From IMG/VR virus record IMGVR_UViG_3300021197_001654, positions 1 to 64,000 of that record: 64,000 bases of DNA; one strand, written 5' to 3'. Position 1 is the first letter of the stretch, and every line of letters starts with the position of its first letter. Below are positions 15,481 through 59,892 of this stretch, in pieces. The notes beneath the pieces were generated by a model. The model did no database searches. It was not told where the DNA came from and worked only from the letters and a program-made list of their open reading frames with translations. The position numbers were made by a program, and so were the translations under genes. This stretch comes from a virus.

Positions 15481-18108
15481 TCACTTCGTTACTTTGATCG
15501 CGCTTAATTTAGCTCCGCCCCATCGAACTGTTACACCATCTAGAATGTCGCGGCCTCCGACGGGAGACGCCCACTGAAATGGTAGATCTTTGTCTCCCGT
15601 AACAATATCTAAGCCTCCAGGAACTATTGATGACGGGACGGTAACAACTTCACCGTACTTCCGAACTTTGAGCGGCCCGTAACCCCGCATCCAAATATCC
15701 GGAACATACGAACTAACAAACCCACCAATCTCGGTAATGTCTAAGTCGACGGTAGTTGTGTTCTCAATAACCAGCATGACCGGTATATTAACACCCAAGT
15801 TACTCGGAAATAATCGGTCTCCCCGACCGTTAGACTTACCCTTAGGGCCGAGTGATTCGAAAAACCCAGGAAGGATACCCGCCGGCATCGCTGTAATTTC
15901 CCCGTTATGGTACAACTCGGTCAGATCACTGCGATCGTAACCGTCCCAGTCAGATGGTACCTCCCAGAAATTTTCTGTCGCGACACCGTGCGCCGTCATA
16001 GGAATCACGTCGCCGTTGTTATCGAACAACGGACTGCGGTTCGTCCAGTTGAACGAATTTGTCAGCGTAGGGACTGCCGCTTGACCGATCTTCCAAGAGC
16101 CGCCCTGCTTGTAACCAATCGCAAAAGACGCGAAAAGATCAAGATACCTCTCCGCCAATAAGTAGCTACCGTACTTACTGTAAAGCTCCCGCGTAAGAAT
16201 TCCGCCGCCCGCGAGACCGCTGTTCATAAAGACACTCGTCCGGACATAATTCGCGCCCGTAGAGTATATCGGATGGATGCCTAGCAACTCTACATCCATC
16301 ATGAGTATCAATTTTTCAGACGGCTTAACCGACAGACCAGACGCCGCGAAACCCAGTTTACTCGGACCATTATTTAACTGAAACCAACCTACGTTATTTT
16401 CGTCGAACTCCGCGTCCGACCCCGGATACCAGCCATCGCTAGAACTCGTCAGAATATTGTTAGTCAACGACAGATCATCGGGGTGGGGTAAAATTGCTTT
16501 GGACGTGTTTGCGTGCTCACCATGGGCTTCGTAACGACCTGTAAATTCGTTGATCTCAATATCAGGAGAAAGACTATCTGTCTCCGAGTACACGACCTTA
16601 GACGGTAGGTACTCACTCGAGAAAACGTTAGTCCCGATATTAGACCCCTGTACGCTATTAAGCGTGGAAGCTAAGATATCACGAGAGCCCGAAATATTAT
16701 CATTCGTCAACTTGTCTTCAGGCATAAATCCTGGAGTCTCGAAACGACTAAAATCAGTCAGTGGCGAGGCGTTGTCACCCGCAGAATCTTGCCTGATAGC
16801 ATTTATAGGCAAATCAAACGCAAGCATCCTTCGGGAAAAGACGCCGACCACGTCACCCTTGACGAACATATCGCTCTTAGGCTCAAGTCTGCGGGCGACT
16901 AACTCAATCGTATGATCTCCCGGCTCAAGGCTGACCACCGCCCCGAGGCGAACAGGCATTACTTCCGGACCATAAGCGACCGCACGAGTTGACTTTAGCT
17001 TCTGACCCGGAGCTTCCCCCGCTGTGTCGGGGTCATAGAAGCTCGTTCCCACGAAACTCTTCTGACCAAATATTGTCCCCAGCCAGGAGTCAGAAACACT
17101 CAATCCCAACCCGATGAGCACATCTCCCAAGTCACCATCTCCCTTTCTCGGAGTACTGTTCGTCACCTGGAGGCCGTGCGCAGACTCCTCAAAAGGTAGT
17201 CGCTTACCCGTAATGGTCTCCTCTAGAATCTTACCATCAACGCGAATCGCAAATTGAATTCGGCACGGCGTATGACCTTCGGATATATGGTGATACCCCT
17301 GACGGTTAGGTTTCGCATATTCCTCATCAGGGTAGATATCTTCGTTTAAAGGCCACGAGTAAGACTCGTCTTGTAGGTTAAGATTGTCTAAGCGGTTCTC
17401 GGTAGCCTCATTAGGTAGCGACTCCCATTTGGCCGACGGGTAGAAATTGTTGAGCGCCGTAGCCTCGTCTAACGCCAAGTTAGCTTGAGAATTACCGGCC
17501 CAAGTGCTCCTAAGTCCGTCACCCGGCTCAGGTGCGTCGAGGACCTCAACCCCAGTAAACTTCCGATCGCCGGGAACATAAGGCGACTTATACTCGAAAA
17601 AACCCTGCCATATATACTGCGCGTAAGCACAAACCCAAACTTGAGTCTGACCCGACACGAAGTTGATTTGCTGGGAGCCGCTTAAGTCTGCATTCTTAAC
17701 AGCCGTCCAGGCCCCGGAGTTCGGTATGATGGAGGGGTAGCCATCGGAGTCGGTGCCCGCATAAGTTCGCCGAAACGTCGCCTCGTCTAACTTCACAAAG
17801 TTCGGTGGCGGACGGAATGTGTAGTCGTCGACTAAGAATCCCGATTGCCCGTAAACCGGGTACGTACTCTCAATTTGAGTCGTATGGACATTAAAGTAGG
17901 CCCCCTCAGCCACGCACGGACCTGTTGTCTCCGGCGTTACACTAGTCGGGCCGGGCCTCAAGTCGTTCTTAAGACTATTCGCATTAAAATTTGTGCGGTC
18001 AAGGTTTGCCGCTAACAAATCATGCACCGGCTGAATGTCTTCGTTAAAATCTGAGGGGTCTAAAATATCGCGAGTCCGGAGGAATCGACGGGGAAAAATA
18101 TGAGGCAT
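15481..18108 (-). CDS. Large beta-rich structural protein, probable tail appendage
   Basis: 875 residues, beta-rich, many aromatic and Asp/Asn/Gly residues, no membrane segment. The N-terminal layout is shared with the 305-residue product just downstream. Repeated segments of the type GDHTIELVARRL and LILMMDVELLGIH suggest several jelly-roll-like modules. It lies between the tail-hub candidate and the internal virion proteins, so a receptor-binding or appendage component is likely. No enzyme motif seen. Start ATG with AGGA eight bases upstream, directly next to the preceding stop. Confidence 0.6.
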   Translation of the reverse strand: MPHIFPRRFLRTRDILDPSDFNEDIQPVHDLLAANLDRTNFNANSLKNDLRPGPTSVTPETTGPCVAEGAYFNVHTTQIESTYPVYGQSGFLVDDYTFRPPPNFVKLDEATFRRTYAGTDSDGYPSIIPNSGAWTAVKNADLSGSQQINFVSGQTQVWVCAYAQYIWQGFFEYKSPYVPGDRKFTGVEVLDAPEPGDGLRSTWAGNSQANLALDEATALNNFYPSAKWESLPNEATENRLDNLNLQDESYSWPLNEDIYPDEEYAKPNRQGYHHISEGHTPCRIQFAIRVDGKILEETITGKRLPFEESAHGLQVTNSTPRKGDGDLGDVLIGLGLSVSDSWLGTIFGQKSFVGTSFYDPDTAGEAPGQKLKSTRAVAYGPEVMPVRLGAVVSLEPGDHTIELVARRLEPKSDMFVKGDVVGVFSRRMLAFDLPINAIRQDSAGDNASPLTDFSRFETPGFMPEDKLTNDNISGSRDILASTLNSVQGSNIGTNVFSSEYLPSKVVYSETDSLSPDIEINEFTGRYEAHGEHANTSKAILPHPDDLSLTNNILTSSSDGWYPGSDAEFDENNVGWFQLNNGPSKLGFAASGLSVKPSEKLILMMDVELLGIHPIYSTGANYVRTSVFMNSGLAGGGILTRELYSKYGSYLLAERYLDLFASFAIGYKQGGSWKIGQAAVPTLTNSFNWTNRSPLFDNNGDVIPMTAHGVATENFWEVPSDWDGYDRSDLTELYHNGEITAMPAGILPGFFESLGPKGKSNGRGDRLFPSNLGVNIPVMLVIENTTTVDLDITEIGGFVSSYVPDIWMRGYGPLKVRKYGEVVTVPSSIVPGGLDIVTGDKDLPFQWASPVGGRDILDGVTVRWGGAKLSAIKVTK

Positions 18109-37971: not shown

Positions 37972-38227
37972 CTCGCACCACGGCGAAGAGAGACACACTC
38001 CGGCGAGCACCTATTAACCTCATCCTTACTACTAACTGGGGGCGAAGACTAACTCCATCACGGCGGGCCCAAACTTTTTTCCACGGCGGGGGGGAAGGCA
38101 AGGTCAATGGCGGGCCGGGTGAGGAGACAAGAACTGTGGGGGGGATTGGCGTTGAGTAAAGTCTGGTGCCCTGTGCCCAGTCCGCCCGCGATCAAGCCCT
38201 TCAGTCATACCATGCGTTCAGAACCCT

Positions 38228-38283
38228 GGGTGAAACAAAGGTATATTTTTTAACCCCAGAAAATATCTTCCTTTCTTTCACCC
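38228..38283 (+). repeat. Long imperfect inverted repeat (22-24 bp arms)
   Basis: GGGTGAAA (38228-38235) pairs with TTTCACCC (38276-38283). The arms continue inward through AAAGG/CCTTT to ATATTTT/AAAATAT, leaving a loop of about ten bases. It sits 80 bases ahead of the first small gene of the rightward operon and would form a stable leader hairpin in its mRNA. Confidence 0.7.
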
Positions 38284-38363
38284 ACGAACCTGCCCACCTG
38301 GTCGGACTGGGTCGTGATCGGGACGGCCCGGTCACAGTTCCCCAGCCTTTACAGGAGATAGAA

Positions 38364-38540
38364 ATGAGTACTATGAAATCGTTGTTCGAACGTCAACTGG
38401 TTCCCATGGACGGTCAACTCGCTTACGGCGACAAGACCAGGCCATCGAGAGAGAAGCAGCCGGCGCAACAGACCTTGTTCCCCACCATCTACCACAACCT
38501 CGCAGCGAAGACAGCGACACCGGAAGGAGGTGCCAAATGA
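38364..38540 (+). CDS. Small protein, unknown (first gene of small-gene operon)
   Basis: 58 residues from the ATG at 38364 (MSTMKSLFERQLVPMDGQ), chosen for AGGAGA six bases upstream; a longer frame from 38166 lacks a ribosome site. Mildly basic, no motif. Its stop overlaps the next ATG. Confidence 0.55.
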   Translation: MSTMKSLFERQLVPMDGQLAYGDKTRPSREKQPAQQTLFPTIYHNLAAKTATPEGGAK

Positions 38541-38668
38541 ACGGGTTCATACTTTGGCTCGAAGCGAACGAGATCCCATACGCCTTGTGGGACGTTTGGC
38601 ACGAACACGGTTGCCTCCACCCGAAGCACCAGCCGTACTGGCTTGGACCACAAGGAGGCGGCAAATGA
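38537..38668 (+). CDS. 43-residue protein, unknown
   Basis: ATG inside the previous stop (ATGA) with GGAGG upstream. Trp- and His-rich (ALWDVWHEHGCLHPKHQPYW). Could bind a metal. Too short for family recognition. Confidence 0.5.
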   Translation: MNGFILWLEANEIPYALWDVWHEHGCLHPKHQPYWLGPQGGGK

Positions 38669-38718
38669 GCCTTGACGATCTCCTCCCTCTAGAAACCTCA
38701 ATCATTCCAACCACTTAG
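38665..38718 (+). CDS. 17-residue micro-ORF
   Basis: ATGAG overlapping the previous stop, GGAGG upstream, product MSLDDLLPLETSIIPTT. Either a real micropeptide or a coupling leader for the following gene. Confidence 0.3.
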   Translation: MSLDDLLPLETSIIPTT

Positions 38719-38726
38719 GAGGCCAC

Positions 38727-38960
38727 ATGGCTCTTTCCAAAGACAACTTCGACTTCGGTCCCGCATTGATCGGTCCAAACACAACACGCACTTGTGTGTG
38801 CTGTGGAGAAACCATCTACGAAGGGCACTGCGCAATCTGGGTTACTACCACCAAAGGCACTAAGTTCTTCTGCGAACCGTGCGTGCCCGACTTGGCCGGT
38901 AATCAAGAAACGTACGAAGACGATCACCGGATCGACGATAACGCCGAGATCCCGTTCTAG
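38727..38960 (+). CDS. Zinc-ribbon-like small protein
   Basis: 77 residues. CVCC at about 24-27, then HC and a late CEPC make a CxxC...CxxC zinc knuckle. The acidic C-terminal ending DDNAEIPF resembles the acidic tip of SSB proteins and may let it bind SSB partners; that is inference. TAGGAGG precedes the ATG. Confidence 0.6.
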   Translation: MALSKDNFDFGPALIGPNTTRTCVCCGETIYEGHCAIWVTTTKGTKFFCEPCVPDLAGNQETYEDDHRIDDNAEIPF

Positions 38961-38981
38961 CATTTGATTCCTTTCCGCGCT

Positions 38982-39001
38982 CATCCGGCTTCGGTCGGAT
39001 G
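38982..39001 (+). terminator. UUCG-type hairpin after the zinc-ribbon gene
   Basis: CATCCGGC pairs with GTCGGATG around a TTCG tetraloop. Very stable, but no T-tract follows, so it may be an mRNA-stabilising or processing element rather than a terminator. Confidence 0.45.
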
Positions 39002-39042
39002 GACGTTGTGAGTAATTAAACTCTAACCAACCTGGAGGCTAC

Positions 39043-39315
39043 ATGCTTCGCTTCTTTTTCATTCGTCTACTCCACCAACTCATCGACTCCGTCGATGACG
39101 TTACCTTTAGCACATACAGGGCAGAAGCCGAAGAAACCCTGCGGACTTTCCGAGACGTCACCGTCAAGCAACTCGCGGACTACGACAAAGGGATGCCCGA
39201 CGATTCGACTTTTCTCCGTCATCCAAAAGATCGCAGGGTACACAACGCCAAGCGCGGCGTGTACCTCGCGACCATCGAACTCATCGATGCCAAGATCGAT
39301 TCTCTCACCGACTAA
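39043..39315 (+). CDS. Small protein, unknown
   Basis: 90 residues, helical, basic and acidic residues mixed (TYRAEAEETLRTFRDVTVKQ). Start preceded by CCTGGAGG, the ribosome-site block shared across this operon. No motif. Confidence 0.55.
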   Translation: MLRFFFIRLLHQLIDSVDDVTFSTYRAEAEETLRTFRDVTVKQLADYDKGMPDDSTFLRHPKDRRVHNAKRGVYLATIELIDAKIDSLTD

Positions 39316-39338
39316 ACCCTAAACGACCTGGAGGTCAC

Positions 39339-39641
39339 ATGACTTATTCCGAATACACACCCCGTCAATGCTTCACCACCCACGAAGCTATCACCGAGCA
39401 GATTATCTTGCTTGCCACCAACTCGGCTAACTTCGAGAACTACGCAAAGCACGATGATCACAACGGCAACATCTGCTACGATATCCGCGAGCATCACGGC
39501 GAAAGTCAAACCAAAGCGCTCATGGATCTCATCGAGGACTACACGACTTTCGTTGTGCGGAGTCCATTCAGCCCAGACGTCGAAGATATCAAAGTAGTCT
39601 ACGACAAGTACCGCACTATCCGGTCAATGCTTCTTCGCTAA
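39339..39641 (+). CDS. Small protein, unknown
   Basis: 100 residues, helical with a His-rich middle (HDDHNGNICYDIREHHGESQ). Possibly metal-binding. CCTGGAGGTC upstream. It is the last gene before the GTAACAC repeat array. Confidence 0.55.
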   Translation: MTYSEYTPRQCFTTHEAITEQIILLATNSANFENYAKHDDHNGNICYDIREHHGESQTKALMDLIEDYTTFVVRSPFSPDVEDIKVVYDKYRTIRSMLLR

Positions 39642-40051
39642 ACCCTAACCCGTTACACAGCGTAACACTCTGTAACACACTCAGTGTTACGGCAAACCAT
39701 AGGTTCTATCTACCTTATTAGTAAGTGTAACACTGTAACACTAATTCCTTAGATAGTACTCCTCGTAGCGTGAGGCTCAGTGGGTTTAACGTAAGCCTAT
39801 TACCCACTACCCACTGTCTCCTTACGTATACACACCCTAAAACACAAACCCGTGTTACAGTGTTACACCTCGGCATATGTCAGGTTCAACGCCGAGTCTC
39901 CCGTAACACGCACCATGTTACGCCGTGTAACGCACATCAGAGCATCCGGCCATAAGCCAGGTTCTAACGTGGGTCCGGCGTAACACTACCTCAATCATCA
40001 GGCTTTTGCTGGTGATCATAGAAACTTCAACACGACCAGGAGGTCAACATC
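39642..40051. other. 410-bp gene-free stretch with GTAACAC/GTGTTAC repeat array
   Basis: Nothing codes convincingly here. Nine exact GTAACAC or GTGTTAC heptamers lie between 39662 and 39986, in both orientations. A further feature, GGC-N7/8-AGGTTC, occurs three times (39691, 39872, 39948), each with GTAACAC downstream. See the repeat entry. Confidence 0.75.
39652..39986. repeat. Iteron-like array of GTAACAC/GTGTTAC
   Basis: GTAACAC starts at 39662, 39672, 39727, 39735, 39903 and 39980; GTGTTAC at 39684, 39852 and 39860. Three composite units pair an outer heptamer with GGC-N7/8-AGGTTC: unit 1 39684-39733, unit 2 39860-39909 (both 50 bp), unit 3 about 39925-39986. In units 2 and 3 AGGTTC and GTAACAC are exactly 21 bases apart. 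Unit 2 also has CTCGGC (39869-39874) pairing with GCCGAG (39891-39896). Looks like a protein-binding array, such as an origin or partition/transcription control site. Confidence 0.7.
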
Positions 40052-40381
40052 ATGGAAATCGAGATCATCAACTCACAGACCGGCGCGCTGCTGCTGTGCT
40101 CAACAAGAGAACAAGCAAACCTGCACCTCGCGGAACACGAAAACGCAATCGTCGAAGAGGTCGGCATCACCGAAGACGGCATGTACTACATGGTCGACTA
40201 CGACGAAGAGCAAATGTTCACCTTGTGTGACGCGTGCAACAACCCCATCGATCCTTCCGGAGATCCAATCTTTCTCGGAGATCCACTGCACGAACAAACT
40301 CTTCCAGCACCTGACAACGACTGCTCGTACAGCGGGACGTTCTGCTCAGACAACTGCTTCTCCTACCACTACCAACACTAA
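40052..40381 (+). CDS. Acidic protein with cysteine knuckles, unknown
   Basis: 109 residues. Acidic N-terminal half. CDAC at about 59-62 and a late CSDNC make a likely zinc site. It begins just after the repeat array with CCAGGAGGTC upstream. Confidence 0.55.
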   Translation: MEIEIINSQTGALLLCSTREQANLHLAEHENAIVEEVGITEDGMYYMVDYDEEQMFTLCDACNNPIDPSGDPIFLGDPLHEQTLPAPDNDCSYSGTFCSDNCFSYHYQH

Positions 40382-40405
40382 ACACTCACCGACCAGGAGG
40401 TCAAC

Positions 40406-40567
40406 ATGCCAGACGAAATCATGATCGTACTCAACACCACAGGCGAAATCATCTTCGAGCCATTCTCCATCGAACATGCTTTGGTATGGATCGACGATCA
40501 TTTTCTCAAGATCGTATCCATCGAAGACGACGCCACTGACCTGTCCTACATGGTCATCCCTGTCTAA
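40406..40567 (+). CDS. 53-residue acidic protein, unknown
   Basis: ATG at 40406 preceded by CCAGGAGGTCAAC. Hydrophobic/acidic (IMIVLNTTGEIIFEPFSIEH). No motif. Confidence 0.5.
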   Translation: MPDEIMIVLNTTGEIIFEPFSIEHALVWIDDHFLKIVSIEDDATDLSYMVIPV

Positions 40568-40592
40568 AACCAAACCGACCAAGGAGGTCAAC

Positions 40593-40868
40593 ATGACATA
40601 CTTCATCGAAATCAATTCCTCAAACAACCGTCCCGGAACAACATTGGTAGGTCGCTCGGGTAACCGGGTCGCATCCCGCCTACTACACGAGGTCAAAGAC
40701 AATCCAGACTTTGCGTTTCGCAACGAACATACTGCAAACCGGGCTCTCATCGAAGCGATCAACGACCTACGGCTCAAACGAGTCGAAGAAAACCGTGGCT
40801 TCACAACCGAGTACAAACTCAACTTGCTCAAGCGCCTCAACAACGCTCAATTCATTTCATGTAAATGA
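40593..40868 (+). CDS. Small basic protein, unknown
   Basis: 91 residues from the ATG at 40593 (AAGGAGGTCAAC upstream). Basic and helical at the C-terminus (TANRALIEAINDLRLKRVEE). Could bind nucleic acid; no motif. Confidence 0.5.
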   Translation: MTYFIEINSSNNRPGTTLVGRSGNRVASRLLHEVKDNPDFAFRNEHTANRALIEAINDLRLKRVEENRGFTTEYKLNLLKRLNNAQFISCK

Positions 40869-40881
40869 TTCCACTGCAGGT

Positions 40882-40914
40882 AAAACATCTCATCCAGTAG
40901 GTGCCAGATGTTTT
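40882..40914 (+). terminator. Hairpin terminator candidate
   Basis: AAAACATCT (40882-40890) pairs perfectly with AGATGTTTT (40906-40914), ending in TTTT. It lies 14 bases after the preceding stop. Confidence 0.65.
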
Positions 40915-40984
40915 CCCTTCTGTGTAATTACGCACACCGCAGTCGGTCGGTCACCGTCACCCTAAAACAAAATCAGGAGTCATC

Positions 40985-41614
40985 ATGACACCAAGTAAAG
41001 AAGCCGCCCTTCGTCGTCGCATCCTCAAGCCTTACTTCCTCACGGTTGACCAGGTTGCGCACTTCTACAAATCCGACTCTGTGACCTACGGGTTCCGTCG
41101 GGTCGAGAAGATTGTCGACGGCAAGAAGGTCATCACGGATTACCCCATTGAGGTTGCCCGTAAGTTGATTAACCCTCAGGACCCAAGCTGCCCTAACTGG
41201 CACTTCCTGACCAACAACCCCGAGACAGCCAGGGAACTCGCTCGTCTACTCCCACGTAGTCAGCGTCCCTGGATGAACGACCAACGTTCTACCTGGTCAT
41301 ACGGCCTGGAGAAAGATTGGTACGCTGAGCCTGCCTTCTCCATGTCCTACAAGGTACGCGTCAAGGAGTGGACAGGTCGCCCAGGCCCGAGACACGTAGG
41401 TCCCTTCTGGGTCCGAACTGCCAAGGCCAAGGCACCCACAACCTTCTGGCTCCAGGGTCGCAAGGTTGAGGCCGGAGACGTCAGCGACCTCCAGGTAGAT
41501 ACGACCCTCAACGGAGATGAACTCTCATACGTTGAGAAGGTTGCAATGCTCCGCGACAGAAAAGCTTGGTCCGCCGCGGTCCGAGCAGGCGAACTTCCCA
41601 GCTTCACAGAGTAG
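40985..41614 (+). CDS. 209-residue protein, unknown
   Basis: Basic and aromatic-rich (LKPYFLTVDQVAHFYKSD; TYGFRRVEKIVDGKKVITDY). Mixed alpha/beta, no metal site or membrane segment, no catalytic motif I recognise. It follows a terminator hairpin and precedes another, so it may be its own transcription unit. Larger than most genes in this region. Confidence 0.6.
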   Translation: MTPSKEAALRRRILKPYFLTVDQVAHFYKSDSVTYGFRRVEKIVDGKKVITDYPIEVARKLINPQDPSCPNWHFLTNNPETARELARLLPRSQRPWMNDQRSTWSYGLEKDWYAEPAFSMSYKVRVKEWTGRPGPRHVGPFWVRTAKAKAPTTFWLQGRKVEAGDVSDLQVDTTLNGDELSYVEKVAMLRDRKAWSAAVRAGELPSFTE

Positions 41615-41698: not shown

Positions 41699-42085
41699 AT
41701 GTCCCGTCGTCAATACAAAGTAATCGTAGCCGGTTCGCGAACAGCAACAGGCCCATCCATCTACTCCCTACTCGAACGCAAGCTCGACTCCATACTCAAA
41801 AACAAATCCGTGACTCACGACATCGTGATTGTTTCCGGGACTGCACGTGGCGCGGATCTACTCGGCGAACAATACGCAAAGTCCCGTTCCTTCCAGGTCG
41901 AACGATACCCAGCTGACTGGACCACCTTCGGTAAACGGGCTGGGTACCTTCGCAACGAAGAGATGGCTATGAACGCCGACGCACTCGTAGCTCTGTGGGA
42001 TGGTGACTCGCGAGGCACCCAACACATGATCAATCTTGCAGGTAGACATCACTTGCCAACTCGAATCGTTTCCTTAGATCAATAA
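41699..42085 (+). CDS. YspA-like SLOG family protein
   Basis: 128 residues, Rossmann-type. It shows the hallmarks of the YspA/DUF2493 branch of the SLOG superfamily: KVIVAGSRT near the N-terminus, VSGTARGADLLGEQYA at about 46-61, RYPADW then RNEEMAMNADALVALWDG, and a final SRGTQHMINLA. These proteins are predicted to bind nucleotide-derived ligands. SLOG proteins occur in signalling and defence systems, so in a phage it may interfere with host nucleotide signalling; that is inference. CCAGGAGGAC precedes the start. Confidence 0.85.
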   Translation: MSRRQYKVIVAGSRTATGPSIYSLLERKLDSILKNKSVTHDIVIVSGTARGADLLGEQYAKSRSFQVERYPADWTTFGKRAGYLRNEEMAMNADALVALWDGDSRGTQHMINLAGRHHLPTRIVSLDQ

Positions 42086-42941: not shown

Positions 42942-42970
42942 CAACAACCCAGTATTGCAAAGGAGCAATC

Positions 42971-43372
42971 ATGAACATCGTAATCATCCACGGAAACCTT
43001 GGCGCCGACCCAAAGCCAGGACAAACCAAGTCAGGTCTCGCTGTGTGCAACATGAGCGTCGCCACTAACGAACGCAAGCAAACCGACGGCGAGTGGGTCG
43101 ACCACACCGAGTGGCACCAAGTCACCGTCTTCGGCAAGCAAGGCGAAAACTGCAGCAAGCACCTGGCCAAGGGCTCGAAGGTTGTCATCAACGGCAAGCT
43201 CCGTACCCGCAAGTACACCGACAAGAACGGCGTAGAAAAGTACAGCACCGAGATCGTAGCCGACCGGGTTGAGTTCTCAGGCAAGAGCAACAACGCTCCA
43301 GCCACAACGACAGGCAGCATCCCGTCGTTCAACGGAACCTCATCATACGGCAACGACGAAATACCTTTTTAG
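42971..43372 (+). CDS. ssb: Single-stranded DNA-binding protein
   Basis: 133 residues from the ATG at 42971 (AAGGAGCAATC upstream; an earlier in-frame start adds atypical residues). OB-fold: NIVIIHGNLGADPKPGQTKS, VCNMSVATNERK, WHQVTVFGKQGENCSKHLAK, GKLRTRKYTDKNGVEKYSTE. It ends in a flexible Asn/Thr-rich linker and the acidic tip GNDEIPF, the bacterial SSB interaction peptide. It coats single strands during replication and recruits partners. Its position in the early block, not beside the polymerase, is unusual but not rare. Confidence 0.93.
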   Translation: MNIVIIHGNLGADPKPGQTKSGLAVCNMSVATNERKQTDGEWVDHTEWHQVTVFGKQGENCSKHLAKGSKVVINGKLRTRKYTDKNGVEKYSTEIVADRVEFSGKSNNAPATTTGSIPSFNGTSSYGNDEIPF

Positions 43373-51332: not shown

Positions 51333-51878
51333 TTAAGATCCGACAACCGCGCCGCCGGCAACGATACGAGCGAGACGCTCATCAAAGTCTACATCAACCG
51401 TAACGCCTACTCGAGTGTCTGACGATTCGGACTGCGGTGTAATTCCGCATCTATCCAGTATCGCTTCCGATGCCTTGACACGATCTCTCGGCTGAGCGCC
51501 TACGTCTGTTGCAACCTCCAGGAGCGCACTGAGCGCTGCGGTAGCAGCCTCCTGCAAACCCTGACCTAATGCATCTTTCCGGCGTTCGGCCCCGCTCTCG
51601 ATAGCCTCAACGAACTCGGGCTCTTTAGACCAGCCCCACACTGTGGTCGGCCGTATACCAAGTCGTCGGGCTGCCGTAGAAACTGTGTATCCGGCTACCA
51701 ACAACTGCTTTGCCACATCCCGCATCTCATCGTTGTCACTAAACCGAGCTTGCTCGGCGAGCATAGCCACGATCTCTGCTTCTCCGACTGGAACCACAGT
51801 GCGTGGTACGACTTGTAGCCCCTCGACCGAAGGCAGAGTTGGTTGCGGTGCGTCTACTTCATCTTCCATAGACAACAT
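51333..51878 (-). CDS. HTH protein, possible small terminase subunit
   Basis: 181 residues. Residues about 50-85 form a homeodomain-like helix-turn-helix (AKQLLVAGYTVSTAARRLGI, RPTTVWGWSKEPEF). A long helix (ERRKDALGQGLQEAATAALS) and PRDRVKASEAILDRCGI follow, a layout seen in small terminase and related HTH proteins. It lies 25 kb from the large terminase gene, so the terminase role is only a suggestion; a transcription or replication regulator is the alternative. Start could be 51878 or the ATG nine bases later. Confidence 0.6.
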   Translation of the reverse strand: MLSMEDEVDAPQPTLPSVEGLQVVPRTVVPVGEAEIVAMLAEQARFSDNDEMRDVAKQLLVAGYTVSTAARRLGIRPTTVWGWSKEPEFVEAIESGAERRKDALGQGLQEAATAALSALLEVATDVGAQPRDRVKASEAILDRCGITPQSESSDTRVGVTVDVDFDERLARIVAGGAVVGS

Positions 51879-51929: not shown

Positions 51930-54062
51930 TCACGCCTCCGATTCTATCGCCATATCTGCTGCGTGCCTGTCGATGCAGTAACATCGTGTCGGCTGACCAT
52001 CGACGCGCACAACGCGGCTTCGAGCCTTCTGTATTCCACCGCTACGCTTCAGCCACTCCCGGTCTTTCCAGCGCGTGATAATCTCATCGGGCTCGTGTCC
52101 AAGCTCACGCATTAGATTATTAAAAGCAGTAGTCGTTACTGCAATCTGATCCCAATCGTTCTTCTGGTCCCATGAGCCGACCCATCCCTGCGAAGGCGAT
52201 TTAGTATTGCCCTCGCGGTCACGCTCTGCACGACCCCAAAACCTTTTCTGGTTCGACGCACACCAAGTCAAGAAATCTTGCAGTGCTGACAACGGTCGGT
52301 CAGCGTCTACGCCAGCCTGCTCCTGCGACTCAAGTAAGCAGGTGAATGGGTCAACCGTAGGGTGAGGCACACCCAAACTATGTACGATGCTAGCAGATAC
52401 TTCGAGTACAGCCAGATGCCCCGCATGTCTCCGAGCCACCGCAGACTTGGCCAGGTCGGAGTATTTCTGACGCGCCACCTGAAAGACTCCTCGGATGTCG
52501 TCATGTCTTTCCCGGTTGGCCACCAGGTACTGAACTACGCGTCGGCCGAGATGTCCGTAAGTCTTCGCCAGCAGCGCCTGTGAGTCTTCGCTCGCCGCTG
52601 AACCCACTACAATGTCGTCTCCCAGCGGCTTACCCTTGAGCGACAGAACACGCGCACGAGTACCAGCATCCTGCGAGAATGATGTAGCCGCACCTTCTCC
52701 ACTACTTACAAGAATCGAACGCCAGGACTCAGTATGGCGCGTACCTTCGACGGAGCCGCGACCCCTACCTTGACCCTGACAGAAGTCATAGATGACGTCA
52801 CGGACGATCCTCGTGTGCCTAGCGCGCTTGGTTTCGTCTAGGATCAAAGGCAGGTTCTTAAGGAATCCACTTGTACGCTCAATCCAAACCTTAGTGGCGT
52901 CCCAAGAATACATGGCTGTCGGGTATGACTCTGCGGGACGACCCCAGACGGCAGCCGCAAAGCGAAGAGCCGTAGTCTTACCACCGCTAGTCTCCCCGCT
53001 GAAGTCTAAAACAAAGCCCGGAACACGGAGCACTTCGAGTAACGGAGCCGCAGCGCTCGCGTATGTCGCGACGAACATGTAAGGAAAGTCCTCGACTAAA
53101 CGCATAGCGTCAAGCCATTCGTTCCAAGTTCCCTTAGCAACCCATCCACCCGACAAAGTCTCAAGACCTGACGGAGGCGTAAGCGCAAAGTCTGTGTCGG
53201 AATCATCCCCAGACGAATAGTACATGTCTGGTAGGAGAAACCCACCATCGGGCTGCCATCCCATCGAGGAAGCTGACTGCACTACAGGAAACCTGTGCGC
53301 ATTCTCAGCGTCGAACTCAGATAAATACGACACCATGTGCAATGTATTGTTCGTACTGACCGGCGCGTCTAAGTTTGAAAGCGTAATGATCTTTGATGTG
53401 TCGACGATAGTTCGTCTGTTGACGACTCGTGACCGCCACCCACTGGCTCCACGCCAGACAAGCAGTCGCTTAGCGTCGCCACTGACCACATCTATTGTTC
53501 GACCCGCGATAAAGATCGGCGCAAGAGCGATACGTGTCCGCGATATAGTTCCGTCGGGCTGAGCCGCAAGCCTGTATACGCCGTTAAAGTCAATCTCAAA
53601 CCCGCGAGGAGTCCTAAGACTTCCAAGCACTTGCCGGGTAACAATTGATGGCGGCGGCGAACCTTCACCCAACATAGTCTCGAGGCTAGGTAATTCGCCA
53701 AGCTGCTCTTCAATCTCGGCCAAGATAGCGTCGGAACGACGACGTCGCATATCGTTTGCGAGGTTCTGTATCGTCCTACGCAACTGACGTGCGCGCTGAA
53801 CCTGTCGCGGAATCATCTCGATAAGCGCAAGGTTTGTGTTTAGTCGGACCTCGTCTTGCAACCAAGCTTCCGCCAAGTCGCTAATGGTCTCGGGGTCATG
53901 CATGGAATCCCACGCAGCCCTATGTTCTGGGCGTCCCCCCTCTCGTAGCCGACCAACGAGTCGGTTAATTACTTCTACTGCGCGATCAACGACAGAGACT
54001 TCATCCGCGTCTCTGCTTTGGCCACCGGGGCTCTCCATCCCCACCGTGCCATCTGCTTCCAT
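51930..54062 (-). CDS. DUF927-type DNA helicase/primase-associated ATPase
   Basis: About 710 residues, preferably from the ATG at 54062 (AGGTGG upstream). A long helical N-terminal region is followed by an ATPase core with a canonical P-loop FSGETSGGKTTALRFAAAVW around residue 356-372 and Walker B LPLILDET near 405-410. FCQGQGRGRGS and LVSSGE follow. The order matches DUF927 superfamily helicases that act in phage and plasmid replication. It would unwind DNA for the family A polymerase in the same operon. No separate primase gene is visible. Confidence 0.85.
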   Translation of the reverse strand: MEADGTVGMESPGGQSRDADEVSVVDRAVEVINRLVGRLREGGRPEHRAAWDSMHDPETISDLAEAWLQDEVRLNTNLALIEMIPRQVQRARQLRRTIQNLANDMRRRRSDAILAEIEEQLGELPSLETMLGEGSPPPSIVTRQVLGSLRTPRGFEIDFNGVYRLAAQPDGTISRTRIALAPIFIAGRTIDVVSGDAKRLLVWRGASGWRSRVVNRRTIVDTSKIITLSNLDAPVSTNNTLHMVSYLSEFDAENAHRFPVVQSASSMGWQPDGGFLLPDMYYSSGDDSDTDFALTPPSGLETLSGGWVAKGTWNEWLDAMRLVEDFPYMFVATYASAAAPLLEVLRVPGFVLDFSGETSGGKTTALRFAAAVWGRPAESYPTAMYSWDATKVWIERTSGFLKNLPLILDETKRARHTRIVRDVIYDFCQGQGRGRGSVEGTRHTESWRSILVSSGEGAATSFSQDAGTRARVLSLKGKPLGDDIVVGSAASEDSQALLAKTYGHLGRRVVQYLVANRERHDDIRGVFQVARQKYSDLAKSAVARRHAGHLAVLEVSASIVHSLGVPHPTVDPFTCLLESQEQAGVDADRPLSALQDFLTWCASNQKRFWGRAERDREGNTKSPSQGWVGSWDQKNDWDQIAVTTTAFNNLMRELGHEPDEIITRWKDREWLKRSGGIQKARSRVVRVDGQPTRCYCIDRHAADMAIESEA

Positions 54063-57117: not shown

Positions 57118-59892
57118 CTATATGTCCTTTAGGCTGCGTCCGACTTCAGCCTCTGCAGTCATCGTAACTTCCCACCCAGGAATCGTCACGGTCATGCATT
57201 CTTCAACTCGTTTGCGTGCAGCTTCCAACTCCGGCGGCAAAGGCTCACCCTCCACCGGCTTCCAGTCTGGTGGTAGATGGTCGGGTAACGGAACCTCTAC
57301 GGCAATTGAGTCATGGCACTGATGAATCATGCCCGTCCCCTTACCCGCGAAGTCAAACGCAAACTCATCAATGATAGCCTGCTCTGCAAGCCTCATGATC
57401 GATGACTCGGCCGCGAGTATCGGAAAGTTTACGACCTCGTTCTTCTTTCCATCTGACAGCGGGCCTGAGCGACGTCCGAAGACCGGCTCCTCCATAAAGC
57501 CTTGCTGGCTGTACTTACTGAGCATCTGCGCCCAGGCGTCCTGCCACTGAGGCTCGGCTTTCAACCACTTATTGTGGAAGTGCCTCACCTCACGAGGCTC
57601 GAATTTAAGGTAAGGCATTCGCCCGTCGTCAGTCTCGGTGCTTGTCAGTACCTGCCAGACTGTCATCGGGTCGGCCCAGTAAATCGACGCATACCGGAAC
57701 GTCTTCATGACGTCGCGCATGGCCTTAGCTTCGCCGCCCGTTGGCTTTCGGTCAAGGCTGAACCCATCTGGGCCCCAGCCACTGGCGTTCTTAAAATCAT
57801 TACCAAAAACATCATAGGCTAATAGATTGTGGGGATCCTTACCTGTGTCGAAGCACTCAAGTAGTCGCGGTATCTGCCAATAGCACGCCGTGATTCTGAG
57901 GTGCGCCTGGTCGAGGTCCGCGCCCACAAGTATGCGGCCCGGAGGAGCCGTAAAGATTGACTTAAGTCGGCCCTGACCCTTTCTGTTCCCAATGTTCTGG
58001 AGGTTTGGCCCTGAACTGGATAGCCTTCCTACGCTGGTAACGTGAGCGTTCCATGTAGACCTCACACGACCATCGTCATGCACTAGTCCCTTCTTCGGGT
58101 CTTGGCTCCTACGCCTAAGCGGAACGAGCACGGTCCCGAGAATCTTATTTTTCTCTCTACGATAAAGTCGAAGCTCCTTTAAAAATGACTCTTGATTACT
58201 GCTCAATTGACCCGATGCGAGGTGCCCACGGATTACTGCATCACCTGTACCTGGAGCGCCTGTCTCCGTATAAAACTCATTCGTGCTCATCGAAGCCGGA
58301 ATCCCGAGATTCCAAGACTCGTAAAGAAGCTTCCGAATCTGATCGACACTCCCAGGATTAAAGTTGCTGTCGACATACTTCTGCAACTCCTTGTAGCGCT
58401 TCTTGACCGAGATCTCGTACTCACACTCAAGCGAGCTTCGAAGCTCCTGGTCAATCCACACGCCGGATTTGTGCATTCCCACGCACATGTCTTGCGTTGC
58501 GTGATCAATTTCGTTTAGGTCCCAAGCCCTGCCGCTCGCCCAGAAACCAGGTTTAATTCCGTCATTGATTGGACGGAAGGCACCCATCTCAGTTGCCGCG
58601 TCGATCAGGGGTACCGTGATCCGTGCGTTTACAACCGTGTCGATAATGTTGTACCGAAGAAGTTCGGTGTCATCTTGGCTGCCCGTAGATATCTTCGTAC
58701 CTTTCTCGGTAGTCTCCCAGCGCTCGACGTCAGTCAGTACTGAGCCGATAGTCTTCAGCCCTTTCGGAAGGTCAGGAGCCCGGAACCGAGCATGAAAGAG
58801 AGTGTCGACCAACGGCGCAGGCGTAACGCCAAGCTGCGTCTCAACGACCATGCGGTCATAGTACCCAGCGTTGTGCCCCACCCACACGCGACCATCTGTG
58901 AACGCGGCGCAAATAATCTCGCGTATTCGGCGTTCTTGCTCTCGCGGGTAGATTCGAGTGACCCCATCCGTTGAGAGAATGCCGACGCCGACAGCCCGGC
59001 AAACTTGCGCTGGCGGTTCCCGAGCAGCCTTGCCTTCGTCGTCAAGGTCAGGAATAGCGATAGCAATAGTGCGTAGGTTGCACTCTAAGGGCTCGATGCC
59101 GTCAGTCTCAACGTCATACACCCAGAACGGTGCTGGTTGCGCTAGGAACTCTTCGAGTTGCTCAGGGGTGGGGTTGAGTAGGGAGTCAGGTTCAAGCCAG
59201 CGCAGCGTATCGTTGAACCAACGTGTCGCTTTAGAAATGTCGGCCTCAATAACGGGTCGCCAGTTCGGCGCTCGCGTAACGTAATGAGGCGAAAACGTGG
59301 CCAGCATCTTCTTATTAGTGGGCTCTAAACTCCAGAGCCAGTCGTCGTCAATGTACATCGGGCCACCACGTATGCCGTGAATGCTACCCGACTGACCGGA
59401 AAGTGTTCGCACCGCAGTCTTACCGAACGCGATGAACTTGTCGTACTTACTGAGCACGTTGAGCAATCGAGGCCTGCAGCAGTCGGCCGGGTGAGGTAGC
59501 GGGTCTTCGCCCTTACTGACACGCTTCTTGTTTAGGCGATCTAATGACTTCTCCATCCGACCCCACGCGCCACCTACCTTTCCTGGAGGCTTACACGCGA
59601 TGACGTTGTCGAGGTCTACGTGCGACCGGTTCATTCCGGCAGTCGCCAGGAACCGCGACCACTCACCAGCGGCGGTCCCCATAACGGGTCGACCGTGATT
59701 GATATCCTCTGCTCTAGGAGCTTCCCCGAGCGCTAAAATCTTAGCTCCAGGATGAAACTCGCCCATGACAGGACGCCACTCATCTTTCTGTAGCGCCCCG
59801 TTCGGGCCAAGAGGGCACTCATCGCAACGAGCACCGCATTGTTTTGGATTAGTATTCATAAGAAATAAGGCATCTATCTCGACCACCCACAT
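57118..59892 (-). CDS. DNA polymerase I with N-terminal uracil-DNA-glycosylase-like domain
   Basis: 924 residues. Residues 1-225 resemble family 4 UDG: Cys19, 23, 26, 100 and 138/139 could hold a 4Fe-4S cluster, with GEAPRAEDINHGRPVMGTAA at 56-75. Residues about 255-435 are a 3'-5' exonuclease: Asp260/Glu262, Asp346, Asp418. Residues about 460-924 are family A polymerase: motif A GADLDQAHLR (Asp659; His664 where Glu is usual), motif B R726...K730...Y734...Y738, motif C CHDS (Asp861, Ser862 instead of Glu). The position equivalent to E. coli 762 is Tyr734, as in T7. The fusion recalls SPO1-type phage polymerases. Start may be 59892 or the ATG at 59859; neither has a strong ribosome site. Confidence 0.9.
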   Translation of the reverse strand: MWVVEIDALFLMNTNPKQCGARCDECPLGPNGALQKDEWRPVMGEFHPGAKILALGEAPRAEDINHGRPVMGTAAGEWSRFLATAGMNRSHVDLDNVIACKPPGKVGGAWGRMEKSLDRLNKKRVSKGEDPLPHPADCCRPRLLNVLSKYDKFIAFGKTAVRTLSGQSGSIHGIRGGPMYIDDDWLWSLEPTNKKMLATFSPHYVTRAPNWRPVIEADISKATRWFNDTLRWLEPDSLLNPTPEQLEEFLAQPAPFWVYDVETDGIEPLECNLRTIAIAIPDLDDEGKAAREPPAQVCRAVGVGILSTDGVTRIYPREQERRIREIICAAFTDGRVWVGHNAGYYDRMVVETQLGVTPAPLVDTLFHARFRAPDLPKGLKTIGSVLTDVERWETTEKGTKISTGSQDDTELLRYNIIDTVVNARITVPLIDAATEMGAFRPINDGIKPGFWASGRAWDLNEIDHATQDMCVGMHKSGVWIDQELRSSLECEYEISVKKRYKELQKYVDSNFNPGSVDQIRKLLYESWNLGIPASMSTNEFYTETGAPGTGDAVIRGHLASGQLSSNQESFLKELRLYRREKNKILGTVLVPLRRRSQDPKKGLVHDDGRVRSTWNAHVTSVGRLSSSGPNLQNIGNRKGQGRLKSIFTAPPGRILVGADLDQAHLRITACYWQIPRLLECFDTGKDPHNLLAYDVFGNDFKNASGWGPDGFSLDRKPTGGEAKAMRDVMKTFRYASIYWADPMTVWQVLTSTETDDGRMPYLKFEPREVRHFHNKWLKAEPQWQDAWAQMLSKYSQQGFMEEPVFGRRSGPLSDGKKNEVVNFPILAAESSIMRLAEQAIIDEFAFDFAGKGTGMIHQCHDSIAVEVPLPDHLPPDWKPVEGEPLPPELEAARKRVEECMTVTIPGWEVTMTAEAEVGRSLKDI

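Follow-up and report, generated by a model that had tools for sequence, protein, structure and literature searches.

The question raised by this locus is what function is served by an ordered array of short repeats in an intergenic gap of a tailed phage. The window analysed here is the whole stretch of 64,000 nucleotides (positions 1 to 64,000 of IMG/VR record IMGVR_UViG_3300021197_001654). It contains a 410-bp gap between two + strand genes, the upstream one ending at 39641 and the downstream one starting at 40052. Nine exact copies of GTAACAC or its complement GTGTTAC are situated in that gap, from 39662 to 39986, with starts at 39662, 39672, 39727, 39735, 39903 and 39980 on the + strand and at 39684, 39852 and 39860 on the - strand. 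Three truncated sites (39652, 39917 and 39927) retain GTAAC or GTTAC. The first-pass annotation had reported nine exact heptamers, in both orientations, in gene-free DNA, and all of the copies were reproduced. The array reads as an outer group, 43 bp, a direct pair, a 110-bp spacer, a mirror pair, 43 bp and an outer group, with AGGTTC boxes placed inside the arms. Its parts are as follows.

39652-39986, no strand assigned: whole iteron array, candidate replication origin (nine exact heptamers plus truncated GTAAC sites)
39652-39690, no strand assigned: left outer iteron group (GTTAC 39652-39656, GTAACAC at 39662 and 39672, GTGTTAC at 39684)
39701-39706, + strand: AGGTTC box 1, left arm (AGGTT present here in 8/8 aligned phages)
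39727-39741, + strand: left inner direct pair, GTAACAC-T-GTAACAC (also found in relatives and in unrelated elements)
39742-39851, no strand assigned: central 110-bp spacer, candidate unwinding region (fast sequence divergence)
39768-39827, no strand assigned: imperfect inverted repeat in the spacer, a single-strand hairpin (recurs in relatives with different bases)
39852-39866, - strand: right inner pair, GTGTTAC-A-GTGTTAC, mirroring the left pair (exact heptamers)
39882-39887, + strand: AGGTTC box 2, right arm (alignment and record scan)
39903-39986, no strand assigned: right outer iteron group (GTAACAC 39903, GTTAC 39917, GTAAC 39927, GTAACAC 39980)
39959-39964, + strand: AGGTTC box 3, right outer group (alignment and record scan)

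The number of heptamers is far above chance, as had been proposed. The window as a whole contains 16 copies of GTAACAC/GTGTTAC, compared with a mean of 5.6 in dinucleotide shuffles, and the highest count that a heptamer of any sequence attains in 330 bp is 9 in the window versus 3-4 in 20 Markov-simulated windows. Outside the array the heptamer occurs at background density, so that it is not equally dense throughout the genome. Apart from overlapping variants of the array heptamer, every other 7-mer in the 73.7-kb record, which is possibly incomplete, stays below five copies per 350 bp. A 480-bp bin at approximately 15481-15960, in a coding region, contains seven GTAAC/GTTAC pentamers (record mean, 0.9) and no repeated heptamer. 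The two 50-bp units described previously (39684-39733 and 39860-39909) were recovered, as was the 21-base spacing from AGGTTC to GTAACAC in two units (39882 to 39903 and 39959 to 39980). GC skew has no sign change at the array and is uninformative. BLAST of the array region against phage records gave no match, and a literature search for the GTAACAC heptamer as an iteron yielded nothing relevant. RNA-family and tRNA searches of the array region were likewise empty, and the idea that AGGTTC resembles a tRNA T-arm was abandoned.

Relatives of the window phage were found via DNA-polymerase matches in viral contigs and by a scan for the 15-mer GTAACACTGTAACAC; the gene at 40985-41614 retrieved none as a query, and the single-strand DNA-binding protein (SSB) retrieved only unrelated SSBs. 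Column conservation was counted over eight phages, namely the window phage and seven close relatives, in which the array is in register. The heptamer columns are invariant (63/63), while 51 of 162 columns (31%) are invariant between the heptamers and 20 of 110 (18%) in the central spacer. The spacer hairpin surpasses shuffled sequence in seven of the eight phages (z of -2.6 in the window and -3.0 to -6.0 in six relatives) and is absent from L163; it could represent a priming or cruciform signal. The composite unit GGC-N7/8-AGGTTC of the first-pass annotation held in part: AGGTT is mostly kept among the relatives, but the leading GGC varies.

The expectation that the array would be kept in related genomes was borne out for the close relatives but only in part for the more distant ones. 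In the wider relatives, with polymerases approximately 58-77% identical, the GTAACAC pair is missing, and most of them encode the same helicase (see below). Six carry a different iteron within an unchanged layout (GTAACCAC in four genomes, GGTCGTAAC in one and GGTGTAAC in one), alongside a helicase of the same family, with one displaced array each in the stretches read. The high-GC members of this wider clade yielded no recognisable array.

The same layout was found in unrelated elements. The 15-mer GTAACACTGTAACAC occurs at 111 loci, and at 37 of these at least four heptamers fall within 400 bp; the contigs concerned differ widely in composition. These and the following locus counts are inflated by related sequences and do not represent independent events. 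A gapped pattern based on the layout matched 57 viral contigs, as against one for a control pattern (reversed, uncomplemented). It also matched 16 bacterial contigs, mainly MAGs of Lachnospiraceae, Oscillospiraceae and Bacteroidales. An ORF of 600-900 aa ends beside most of the gapped-pattern arrays, often 0-70 bp away. Thirty-four proteins were scanned, comprising the window helicase and 33 array-side ORFs, and 26 of the 34 contain DUF927 and HTH_56, including 25 of the 33 large ORFs that adjoin arrays of other loci. The helicase was located within 300 bp of the array at 28 of 60 gapped-pattern loci and at 2 of 37 15-mer arrays. It was found near none of 74 lone 15-mer loci and near none of 55 SSB control loci, a set that consisted of unrelated SSBs only and included 55 of 80 loci.

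The window phage encodes a helicase of this kind. Its gene and those of other likely replication proteins are listed here.

51930-54062, - strand: candidate initiator, a 710-aa DUF927-HTH_56 (Cch/SaPIbov1 Rep-like) replicative helicase (domains, PDB profile and fold)
51969-52289, - strand: HTH_56 C-terminal winged-helix region of the helicase, putative iteron reader (domain match and predicted model)
42965-43372, + strand: SSB, likely part of the replisome (protein match)
57118-59892, - strand: family-A DNA polymerase, likely part of the replisome (domain match)

The helicase contains DUF927 and HTH_56 domains, with a partial match to SCCmec Cch. A profile of its family, compared with solved structures, matched SaPIbov1 Rep (8tch, E value 1.4e-75) and also Cch (5dgk). 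The AlphaFold2 model of the protein (mean pLDDT 86) has 8tch as its best and 5dgk as its second-best fold match. The 3' end of the gene faces the array, 11.9 kb away, and no array is present in the window within 600 bp of that end. A terminase-small-subunit-like HTH protein (51333-51770, - strand) is encoded directly behind the helicase gene, in the place where other elements have the origin. The polymerase has an N-terminal uracil-DNA-glycosylase-like domain (PF03167). The start of ssb, at 42965, agrees with its reported position 3 kb from the array, and a small protein encoded 1.7 kb from the array (41699-42085, + strand) matches phrog_289, which has a GTP-binding domain description (E value 1.1e-30). 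The proposal that a small ribbon-helix-helix-like or HTH protein binds the array was unsupported, the helicase's own C-terminal HTH being the better candidate.

Whereas the 15-mer and gapped searches presuppose the heptamer, a converse test is independent of it, since its loci were found by the helicase alone. At 66 of 76 such loci in viral contigs, at least five GTAAC/GTTAC occur within 480 bp on the 3' side of the helicase gene, and on the 5' side of the same 76 loci there are never more than three. Two-orientation arrays were observed right behind the helicase gene in all eight records examined. The iteron is GTAACCA in Anaerostipes AC844P1 and MT835739, GTAACAA in Jekyll, Ruminococcus phiRg507T2_3 and MT835606, and GGTAACCGA in Thermoanaerobacterium THSA-485A. 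Iterons not of the GTAAC type were seen behind the DUF927 helicases of the remaining two records, Epona (L374; TAGGTGAAAC, 10 copies) and PT1028 (L377; AGTTCCC, nine copies), and also at L457 (GTGAACA, eight copies). From the converse test and these exceptions, the GTAAC core is the usual, but not the universal, iteron of DUF927-HTH_56 initiators.

Conversely, GTAACAC arrays also adjoin replicative helicases of the AAA_25, VapE-like and DUF5906 families, mostly just 3' of the gene (loci L296, L299, L302, L305, L314, L316, L325 and L326; L187, L237 and L253; L218 and L243). The heptamer is thus not exclusive to DUF927-HTH_56 initiators. A profile comparison of the C-termini of the AAA_25 helicases with HTH_56 detected no homology; the occurrence of GTAACAC beside these families may reflect either convergence or an ancient winged helix common to them.

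Known systems provide a basis for comparison. In SaPIs, Rep uses its C-terminal domain to recognise an origin with iterons that directly follows the rep gene, apparently as two hexamers, and Cch, a DUF927 protein, is related to SaPIbov1 Rep (PMC7581432). The window phage resembles the SaPIs in having a putative iteron origin (PMC7581432), and its candidate initiator is, like SaPIbov1 Rep, of the DUF927 type with a C-terminal DNA-binding domain, SaPIbov1 Rep being its best PDB match by both sequence and fold. In contrast to SaPIbov1, the window iteron is GTAACAC rather than AGTTCCC, the latter being the iteron of the SaPI-like record PT1028, where it occurs in both orientations right behind the helicase. 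The window array is also not immediately downstream of the gene but at a distance of 11.9 kb, it has AGGTT boxes and a spacer hairpin in addition, and it belongs to a complete tailed phage that encodes its own polymerase. The window helicase shares DUF927 and the Cch HTH (HTH_56) with SCCmec Cch, but differs from it in the N-terminal region. For SCCmec, PMC7581432 gives an origin for Cch2, which is unrelated to Cch, and none for Cch; the C-terminal domain of Cch2 reads iterons downstream of its own gene. Cch2, unlike the window protein, is a Primase_Cterm/D5-type helicase, and its origin has three 5-nt AAGTG direct repeats rather than two opposed sets of GTAAC sites. AC844P1, phiRg507T2_3 and THSA-485A have the same helicase family and opposed GTAAC-core arrays, which carry no origin annotation in their records; unlike that of the window, those arrays are directly behind the gene and have different flanks. 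Phage P4 alpha is an initiator helicase with an origin-binding domain and short iterons, acting at ori and at crr, a site distant from the gene. The window phage resembles P4 in its short iterons, initiator helicase and gene-distant site, but alpha is a D5-type primase-helicase, not a DUF927 protein, and its iteron is different.

Taken together, the sequence comparisons argue that the array is probably the replication origin of the phage, of the SaPIbov1-Rep/SCCmec-Cch type, with the helicase at 51930-54062 as the likely initiator; a rough probability of 0.87 is assigned to this reading. The first-pass annotation had left a choice among replication iterons, a partition site and a cooperative regulator. 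Replication iterons were selected on the comparative evidence, i.e. arrays of the same anatomy immediately 3' of initiator helicases in many unrelated elements and such a helicase in the window phage. The element contains a DUF927 self-loading helicase with a C-terminal HTH, and several short iterons, which form two sets with a central region between them. The putative origin is not directly downstream of the helicase gene, so the array is classed as a variant rather than a plain member of this type. The distance is 11.9 kb in the window and 5-12 kb across its clade, always beyond the helicase 3' end, with two of the clade distances presupposing wrap-around of the contig. According to the mechanism envisaged, the helicase would bind the iterons via its C-terminal winged helix and form what are probably two hexamers, facing in opposite directions, on the opposed sets. 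It would then open the spacer and serve as the two fork helicases, and the family-A DNA polymerase and SSB would copy the DNA. In the clade of the window phage, 5-12 kb of other genes would separate the initiator gene from the origin, on the 3' side of the gene.

Several observations count against the array being the origin. The distance to the presumed initiator gene is at odds with the adjacency seen elsewhere. AT-richness of the spacer is only modest (45% G+C versus 53.5% for the window), the skew does not switch at the array, and there are the high-GC wider relatives in which no array was recognised. The presence of GTAACAC beside VapE, DUF5906 and AAA_25 helicases also counts against it.

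An operator array, on which a repressor or the helicase would control the rightward early genes while the origin lay elsewhere, would accord with the location of the array, which heads the early block and has a + strand gene on either side, and initiators can also regulate nearby promoters. It is nevertheless improbable. Arrays in unrelated elements follow the 3' end of the helicase gene with no fixed downstream gene, and opposed sets around a spacer are unnecessary for such a function; the lack of a sigma-70-like promoter match from 38000 to 41000 is weak evidence in the same direction. The gap of 11.9 kb between array and helicase gene might instead suggest a site for controlling or enhancing replication, comparable to P4 crr, at which the helicase binds while forks start nearer its gene; alpha of P4 likewise has a second binding site at a distance. 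This is a still less probable account, given that the array is the sole iteron cluster in the 73.7-kb record, with none within 600 bp of the helicase 3' end, and that the six changed-iteron relatives likewise have a single displaced array in the stretches read. A partition centromere or an array of integration (attP) arm sites, loci at which short repeats in both orientations also occur, is very improbable indeed, as neither ParB_N nor a tyrosine integrase is present in the record, which disfavours the partition option raised earlier, and as the link to replicative helicases elsewhere is constant.

Four specific candidates were rejected. Matches in the record were lacking for a ParB/parS centromere (PF02195), a tyrosine-integrase attP with arm sites (PF00589) and a Rep_3 iteron-plasmid origin (PF01051). 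A DnaA-box origin was also rejected: the 64 kb contain one TTATNCACA, which is at chance level and lies 11 kb away.

Flanks of the iteron differ between clades while GTAAC is kept. Two observations on the HTH are suggestive only. The differences between the GTAACAC phages and the GTAACCAC phages include a longer wing, and a family-wide statistic that ignores relatedness places in the wing (674-691) those residues whose association with the base following GTAAC is strongest. A broader proposal, held tentatively and at somewhat less than even odds, is that DUF927-HTH_56 initiators of bacterial phages and satellites largely share a GTAAC-core iteron, with flanks chosen by the winged helix and origins predictable from the protein. 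The clade of the window phage would have uncoupled origin from initiator gene while initiator and iteron changed together, and VapE, DUF5906 and AAA_25 helicases would use the same GTAACAC.

The surprise is that in this clade the candidate origin is separated from the helicase gene by 5-12 kb rather than adjoining it. For a group of uncultured phages, the analysis points to a concrete candidate origin and its candidate initiator. How origin and initiator gene remain matched across 12 kb becomes a directly testable question. The iteron series GTAACAC, GTAACCAC, GTAACAA, GTAACCGA and GGTCGTAAC, together with the sequenced HTH domains, makes a recognition code directly testable. As a rule, GTAAC-core iterons behind DUF927-HTH_56 helicases should locate the origins of many phages, satellites and cassettes.
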